In this document: positions 12,047-40,537 of the stretch, in pieces
Position numbering within the stretch: position 1 is the stretch's first letter
Layout: each line of letters begins with the position of its first letter
Assembly: GCA_001005265.1 (NCBI GenBank)
Contig: CP011392.1
Coordinates: forward strand, 1,237,902 to 1,301,901
Direction: 5' to 3'
DNA from: Dehalogenimonas sp. WBC-2
GTDB taxonomy: Bacteria; Chloroflexota; Dehalococcoidia; Dehalococcoidales; Dehalococcoidaceae
Length of the DNA stretch: 64,000 nucleotides
Made by a program: the position numbers and the translations under genes
Notes under the pieces: generated by a model
Told to the model about the DNA's origin: nothing
The model's database searches: none
What the model saw: the letters and a program-made list of their open reading frames with translations, nothing else

Positions 12047-12075
12047 TTTCCTTCCGCTATCCAGTTGTTAAGGTG
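12047..12075 (-). repeat. Upstream arm of the 16S processing stem
   Basis: Pairs with 10403-10431 over 27 of 29 bases. It lies in the rrn leader, about 40 nt before mature 16S. Confidence 0.85.
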
Positions 12076-25698: not shown

Positions 25699-26137
25699 TA
25701 AAAAAGCAAAGATCAAATTCGATTAGGTATTAAGATAGGTCTGGGTGGCATCACATATACGCATTTATACGACATGATGGCGAGTTAACCTTAGTCTATC
25801 TTGGTCGCTCTGACAGAGTTAAGCACCCCCTGAAACGGTATTGAGTTTCCCTCATTTCTGTACAGACATCCCTCGTTGGGTAACAAACATGTATGACCTT
25901 AATTATGGGATGCATTAGATTTCTGAATGTATGATGAAATATTCCATCGAGGCTGAACACAAACCGAAGGTTCTGTCTAATGATTGCGGGCGGTCACCAA
26001 CGGTCTCGAATCAAATGATTCTATTTAGACGAAGTTGAAGGAATAACCGATTTCTGGAACGTAGGTATATCTACAGCGGAACAGTGATCCCGATGTTTGT
26101 TCAGCAGTACTCGCAAACCCTAACCCATTCCCTCCCA
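25699..26137. other. Gene-free stretch
   Basis: About 440 bp without a supportable ORF, rRNA, tRNA or strong terminator on either strand. Confidence 0.5.
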
Positions 26138-26324
26138 AAATAAACCCTCAAATAGTTCAAAAACCCCATTGACAATCCTGCTACCGGTGATATATCATAT
26201 GTTCTCTATTCTTCTGGTGGTTATAAAGAGTATATGAATTATTTGTTTCTTCAGAAAACAACCGGTTGTTTTCATCGGTTTTAATCGTAAAAAGGGAGGT
26301 TGTTTTGGTTGTTTTTGCTTTTTT
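26138..26324 (+). repeat. Dispersed promoter/palindrome element, copy 1
   Basis: Matches 40537-40357 (other strand) over about 185 bp. Shared parts in order are AACCCTCAAA, a TTGACA promoter, GTTCTCTAT, TATTTGTTTCTTC, a 20-bp palindrome centred on ACAACCGGTTGT, TTTTAATCGTAAAAA, GAGGTTGTTTT and a further GTTGTTTTT. The promoter here is TTGACA (26169-26174), 18 nt, TATCAT (26193-26198). The palindrome is 26254-26273. GGTTGTTTT recurs at 26298 and 26307, followed by C-T6 (26318-26324). It may encode a small RNA or be a mobile promoter module. Confidence 0.75.
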
Positions 26325-26732
26325 GAGGAAAAACAATTAACACTCCTCAGCACAGCCGCCTGCGCGCCAAAAGTCGCACCTTGAAAACTGAAGAATTGAA
26401 CCCCGCAAATAGCCAAATTGTTGCTTTGAATCAAAACTCCAGGTCTCAAAAAACCGGTATTTGTGTCAAAACAATTCCTCTCAGATTTTTGGGCTTTGGA
26501 AGATCCCTTTCAATGATATATTCGTGGATGTTACCATAGGGGCAAGGCATACCTCGCCGCCCGTGATATCAACATAATTTGCCTGTTCGACCTTGGAGGG
26601 TTGAGATTTGAAATTTTTTCATAATTTAGCTCTTGTGATTTGGAATCGACTGTCCAGATATATATGGACGATTACATTTTTTTGTGCTTATGGTATCATT
26701 ACGTTTAATATCTGAGGTGGATCGTAGCTAAT
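26325..26732. other. Gene-free stretch after repeat copy 1
   Basis: About 400 bp with no supportable coding frame. The minus-strand ORF crossing it depends on the repeat and is interrupted by a stop at the equivalent place in copy 2. Confidence 0.45.
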
Positions 26733-40233: not shown

Positions 40234-40356
40234 TAGACTACAGGTACCTTCGCCTTGACTCTTCGAGTACTAACTCTCTGACTCGCCGGGACTGGCAGAA
40301 CAAGCCAAAGTCCAGCCTGCAGGCCAGATGAGTAGCGGATTTGTATTTGTTTTACA

Positions 40357-40537
40357 GAAAGCGAAAAAACAACTAAAACAACCTCATTTTTACGATTAAA
40401 ACTGGCAAAAACAACCGGTTGTTTTTAGAAGAAACAAATACTTACTCTTCTTAAGAATCCAATATATAGAGAACACATGTTAGCATAGAGTAATGGGAGT
40501 GTCAATAGCATTTTGGAACTTTTTGAGGGTTAATTTT
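40357..40537 (-). repeat. Dispersed promoter/palindrome element, copy 2
   Basis: Reverse-strand copy of the element at 26138-26324. Promoter TTGACA (40505-40500), 17 nt, TAACAT (40482-40477). The 20-bp palindrome lies at 40426-40407 with outermost A-T where copy 1 has G-C, a change that keeps pairing. GAGGTTGTTTT (40385-40375) and AGTTGTTTTTT (40374-40364) follow. It points toward the carboxyltransferase operon but ends about 125 bp before that operon's own promoter. Confidence 0.75.

Follow-up and report, generated by a model that had tools for sequence, protein, structure and literature searches.

Dispersed promoter-bearing repeats of Dehalogenimonas sp. WBC-2 share their promoter block with phage-derived terminase and capsid genes

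BOX elements of Streptococcus pneumoniae and Correia elements of Neisseria are short, modular, structured intergenic repeats present in many copies, and Correia elements also carry promoters. In multicopy small RNAs, a strong promoter is followed by a potentially folded RNA. In the gene transfer agents RcGTA and CcGTA, structural and terminase genes of phage type are conserved, passed on vertically and placed under common control (PMC11841831, PMC11150451). Here we describe a repeat family of Dehalogenimonas sp. WBC-2 that falls in the known kind of structured, promoter-bearing intergenic repeats. Its units are short, modular, structured, intergenic and multicopy like BOX and Correia elements, and have promoters as Correia elements do, but they share their promoter with a phage-derived gene set, their gene-bearing relatives encode a small terminase instead of a transposase, and no typical terminal inverted repeat with target duplication is apparent in them. 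Like multicopy small RNAs, the element consists of a strong promoter followed by a potentially folded, predicted RNA of about 120-150 nt, but its transcript is a prediction and none of the families in the Rfam covariance models matches it. The phage-derived set of Dehalococcoidales resembles RcGTA and CcGTA in comprising apparently inherited structural and terminase genes with apparently shared control. It differs from known gene transfer agents in that its promoter is present at dozens of non-coding sites; we know of no gene transfer agent with a promoter copied in this way.

The stretch of WBC-2 DNA that we analysed, hereafter the window, is 64 kb long and holds two copies of the element on opposite strands (Table 1). 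A preliminary description had placed two related copies here, each with a TTGACA/TA(A/T)CAT promoter at a nearly fixed position and GTTCTC at the expected RNA start, and reading and alignment bear out all three points. The length of about 185 bp given there does not hold, the unit being about 200 bp and longer where a second module, block B, is present. The limits of copy 1 and its second module are as listed in Table 1, and copy 2 keeps its start, its end being moved from 40357 to about 40345. Two occurrences of the palindrome core ACAACCGGTTGT are present in the window, where 0 are expected (none in 100 shuffles). Copy 1 lies upstream of a TatA-like ORF, recognized by eye and without a Pfam match, and copy 2 lies upstream of a carboxyl transferase gene. 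The boxA-like GCACCTTGAAAACTGAA downstream of copy 1 is found within many long copies and is similar to the boxA region of the rRNA leader (16S leader near window position 12070), and it is possible that it acts as an antitermination signal in long copies. An origin of the element from the rRNA leader was rejected, since the likeness to the 16S leader is limited to this stretch.

Table 1. Positions of element features in the window and of the capsid operon (prefixed positions refer to other coordinate systems)
Feature	Position	Strand	Remarks
Copy 1, left end, promoter, leader and folded tail	26137..26338	+	
Copy 1 block A, species-specific left-end block	26137..26174	+	Ends in -35 TTGACA; common to terS, terL and capsid promoters
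Copy 1 -35 TTGACA	26169-26174	+	Spacer to -10 = 18
Copy 1 -10 TATCAT	26193..26198	+	
Copy 1 GTTCTC at expected RNA start	26201..26206	+	Possible half of a LexA-like box
Copy 1 arm 1 ATTTGTTT	26241..26248	+	5' side of outer stem
Copy 1 arm 2 AAACAACC	26256..26263	+	5' side of inner stem; first palindrome half
Copy 1 arm 3 GGTTGTTT	26264..26271	+	Second palindrome half; absent from some copies
Copy 1 apical motif TTTTAATCGTAA (TTTYAATCGTAA)	26279..26290	+	Also in relatives G001, G002
Copy 1 arm 4 GGTTGTTT	26298..26305	+	3' side of inner stem
Copy 1 arm 5 AAACAATT	26331..26338	+	3' side of outer stem; short-form end
boxA-like GCACCTTGAAAACTGAA	26376..26392	+	Resembles 16S leader GCACCTTAACAACTGGATA by eye
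Block B, 62-bp module	26416..26477	+	A right end of the long form
Copy 2, short form	40345..40537	-	
Copy 2 -35 TTGACA	40500..40505	-	Spacer to -10 = 17
Copy 2 -10 TAACAT	40477..40482	-	
Copy 2 GTTCTC	40474-40469	-	
Copy 2 arm 1 ATTTGTTT	40432..40439	-	
Copy 2 arms 2 and 3 (palindrome)	40409..40424	-	
Copy 2 arm 4 GGTTGTTT	40376..40383	-	
Copy 2 arm 5 AAACAAAT	40345..40352	-	
Capsid operon (HTH, portal, scaffold-like, capsid, adaptor)	G000:C1:303613-309800 (L126:5614-11800)		
Major capsid gene (MCP)	L126:8013-8933		

Several genome-wide searches combined give about 45 units of the dispersed non-coding family in the WBC-2 chromosome, so that the absence of further copies, one outcome that the preliminary description had allowed for, can be set aside. 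A single search of the 1,725,728-bp genome yielded at least 42 matches at no fewer than about 39 places (E <= 2.5e-11; three tandem pairs), and the extra places came from searches with the left end and with block B. Pairwise identity among copies is 70-91%. The left end of the copies is sharp, at AAAATAAACC (left end AAAATAAA), and the right ends lie at hairpin bases. The short form is about 200 bp long; the long form, 340-480 bp, is the short form followed by a spacer and the 62-bp block B, which ends GAATTGTT/AACAATTC (GAATTGTT...AACAATTC) and has 37 strong matches genome-wide. Block B is also found without block A, alone in intergenic regions. Another block, C (TTGAAATTTTTTTACT...), was rejected as a right end: copies do not end there consistently, and relatives have other dispersed repeats that look like it. 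Completeness varies between copies, the inner stem being absent from several, so that part of the family is decaying. The copy number of about 45 in WBC-2 compares with a few in relatives. Copies of the apical motif behind matching promoters are also present in relatives G001 and G002, and related tails in relative G006; the family is therefore older than the WBC-2 strain and was amplified there. No flanking genes are common to different species among the handful of copies examined for this. A phage origin by direct match was rejected, the promoter block and core motif having 0 matches in the viral contigs searched. In the literature, of which open-access coverage is partial, neither repeats of this type nor gene transfer agents turned up for Dehalococcoidia.

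Downstream of the left end, each unit has about 30 bp of block A before TTGACA; a spacer of 17-18 bp then leads to TATCAT or TAACAT, with GTTCT behind it. Nearly all of the compared copies that have a promoter keep its hexamers and GTTCT. Between GTTCT and the first of five arms lies a leader of about 35-45 nt. Arm 1 reads ATTTGTTT or GGTTGTTT across the family and is followed by arm 2 (AAACAACC), the optional arm 3 (GGTTGTTT), the motif TTTYAATCGTAA, arm 4 (GGTTGTTT) and arm 5, which reads AAACAAWT or AAACAACC. In many copies these arms make up a conserved nested fold in which the outer stem (arms 1 and 5) surrounds the inner stem (arms 2 and 4) with TTTYAATCGTAA in the loop. The outer stem co-varies, GG occurring with CC versus AT with WT (19 doubly changed cells, 0 of 500 shuffles), and this covariation is confined to two pairs and perhaps reflects one or two events. 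In six copies arm 1 has T-to-A changes without compensation. Because the inner stem is hardly variable, it is silent for or against pairing. Single-strand folding gives z of -2.1 to -2.6; copy 2 alone folds into the nested form, and copy 1 favours the inner stem plus a 3' hairpin. The family thus combines a conserved promoter with a fold that co-varies in two pairs, as is expected of a structured small RNA family. Of the proposal that the element is a multicopy small RNA or a mobile promoter module, what stands is that it is multicopy, with a conserved promoter and fold, and has multiplied in the lineage.

The preliminary description had also read a change from G-C to A-T in the outermost palindrome pair as compensatory. 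This fails in the family: among 17 copies the pair is GC in 6, GT in 5, AC in 4, TC in 1 and AT in 1, so that 5 of the 17 mispair, and the apparent compensation is an accident of looking at two copies. The same counts led us to reject the palindrome as a co-varying hairpin. Its halves are able to pair with other arms, and the stem that does co-vary is the outer one, which the preliminary description lacks. A two-hairpin alternative (arms 1 and 2, arms 4 and 5) was rejected with zero compensatory changes, and a leader peptide after GGGAGG was rejected because by eye the reading frame differs between copies.

Block A through TTGACA is nearly alike in the non-coding copies of WBC-2, its terS-terL promoter, its solitary terS promoters and its capsid operon. 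Relatives G001, G002 and G006 each have a version of block A of their own that is common across these roles (in G002, no capsid promoter was found); in G003 and G005 an own version is seen for capsid and terminase only. When the 38-bp stretch that closes with the -35 is compared, promoters of the four roles (non-coding, terS, terS-terL and capsid) share on average 84% identity within species and 54% between species. As the capsid and terS-terL genes are inherited and themselves undispersed, such parallel drift is suggestive of a DNA-binding activator that co-evolves with the block; the likeness within species could alternatively stem from gene conversion. Four of the left-end matches lead into a small ORF with a GxxxGNxNAxxHGFYS motif, related to the phage small terminase (terS; PHROG 509, E 1e-5). 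One leads into an operon of an HTH protein, an SPP1-like portal, a possible scaffold, an HK97-like capsid (phrog_212, E 8e-70) and an SU10-like adaptor. The HTH protein, of 101 aa, is encoded first in this operon and is the leading candidate for the putative activator. Gene-bearing versions of the left-end unit thus encode phage terminase and capsid proteins, and the promoter's apparent origin in a phage-derived, gene-transfer-agent-like gene set goes beyond what the preliminary description had in view. A terS copy adjoins the large terminase gene (terL) in several Dehalogenimonas genomes, and the terS-terL pair and the capsid operon lie at separate sites among host genes. Behind solitary terS genes there is often a tail that repeats the arm plan of the non-coding units; the terS-terL pair itself has no such tail. 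Two solitary terS units (L091:1420-2020 and L097:1420-2020) with ends AAAAATAAATG / CATTTATTTTTT share 98% identity over 601 bp, beyond which their flanks are unrelated; this is indicative of recent movement without a visible transposase. One solitary terS match (L092, G006:C8:45337-45669) carries an in-frame TAA.

An intact major capsid gene, mostly in single copy, is present in 52 of the 84 genera of Dehalococcoidales sampled; it is absent from the Dehalococcoides-like sister genus. Capsid identity is 65-84% in most full-length matches across the order and 57-65% for relatives elsewhere in the class, and the next matches, in Gammaproteobacteria, are at 35-38%. The capsid matches returned from viral contigs are on short contigs of about 4-15 kb, consistent with host fragments. 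Conservation and copy number, together with the absence of lysogeny genes as judged from the regions read, fit the pattern of a domesticated, gene-transfer-agent-like capsid and terminase set, and the capsid operon, conserved across the order, is a candidate for an undescribed gene-transfer-agent-like system of Dehalococcoidales.

Among the places listed, the next gene is co-directional with the element in about 31 of 39 under a mechanical ORF rule, the gene calls behind these orientation counts being rough. Of the eight exceptions, four prove on reading to have a gene on the same strand after all (leuS, a selenocysteine tRNA and two ORFs). The raw split in tandem gene contexts is 15 same-way versus 4. 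Many downstream genes seem by eye to own a further promoter after the element.

Many similar dispersed copies with precise ends are as expected of a MITE or other non-autonomous transposon, and the family could be a selfish mobile repeat, MITE-like or hairpin-ended, in which the promoter is left over from the parent unit and an enzyme acting in trans uses the hairpins for transposition. The amplification in WBC-2, the near-identical terS units in unrelated flanks, the sharp left ends, the right ends at hairpin bases and, for the few copies compared, the lack of shared flanking genes across species would all agree with this. However, no clear target site duplication is visible by eye at the copies, the hexamers and GTTCT are retained in nearly all of them, and their orientation is biased toward downstream genes. 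Moreover, no transposase was seen behind the common left end in the genome regions read, where left ends lead to non-coding copies, terS or the portal-capsid operon; this also speaks against the notion, raised in the preliminary description, that all copies are decayed transposon ends. We regard a purely selfish repeat as rather doubtful. That the elements are dispersed pac-like recognition sites of the small terminase, at which phage-derived particles would start packaging DNA, is highly improbable: the arm sequences are repeated, the tails resemble those beside solitary terS genes, and the common left end is linked to terS more often than to any other gene, but the terS-terL pair lacks the element tail, and a packaging site requires neither a promoter nor an RNA fold.

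An SOS module regulated by LexA, in which the GTTCT after the -10 would be half of a LexA box, is compatible with our preferred reading of the elements as copies of the capsid-regulon promoter. The lexA promoter of this genome has GAACAATTGTTC at its start site, where the elements have (A/T)(A/T)CATNTGTTC, and AGAACATATGTGCTA-like boxes occur in capsid promoters across the order. However, in the 38 copies compared the element promoter has one perfect half-site, GTTC, the left half (TATC or TAAC) being degenerate because it overlaps the -10, and several terS promoters are without the box. LexA control of the elements is thus possible but weak. In distant families of the order (L151-L164), the region ahead of the portal operon has LexA-like boxes (AGAACATATGTGCTA) that overlap the capsid-operon -10.

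These comparisons favor, with some confidence, the explanation that the element is a multiplied capsid-regulon promoter with a structured leader or small RNA. Most units precede a host gene read in the same direction, so that copying seems to have placed a phage-like control signal before dozens of ordinary genes. Promoter sharing, family size and fold conservation are read from the sequence, and from them we infer that the copies are activated together, are transcribed from GTTCT into a leader or small RNA, and have spread by copying. The promoter would belong to the regulon of the vertically inherited phage-derived set, the terS-terL pair and the portal-scaffold-capsid operon, and a DNA-binding activator of that regulon would switch on all copies together. 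The RNA would start at or near GTTCT and run toward the downstream host gene as a leader or a short structured RNA. Copies may have arisen from a terS-bearing unit by copying, with loss of terS, and those retained would be chiefly the ones whose promoter is co-directional with the following gene. A more far-reaching version, which we consider unlikely, is a native gene-transfer-agent-like system of Dehalococcoidales with a regulon-wide structured RNA or DNA-packaging signal at about 45 sites of one species, tying host genes or packaging starts to capsid production.

Organohalide-respiring bacteria are of interest for bioremediation, and in them the repeat family described here is linked to a conserved phage-derived gene set. 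Species by species, block A has drifted in concert in the non-coding copies and at the capsid and terminase genes, a pattern pointing to one activator that co-evolves with them all.
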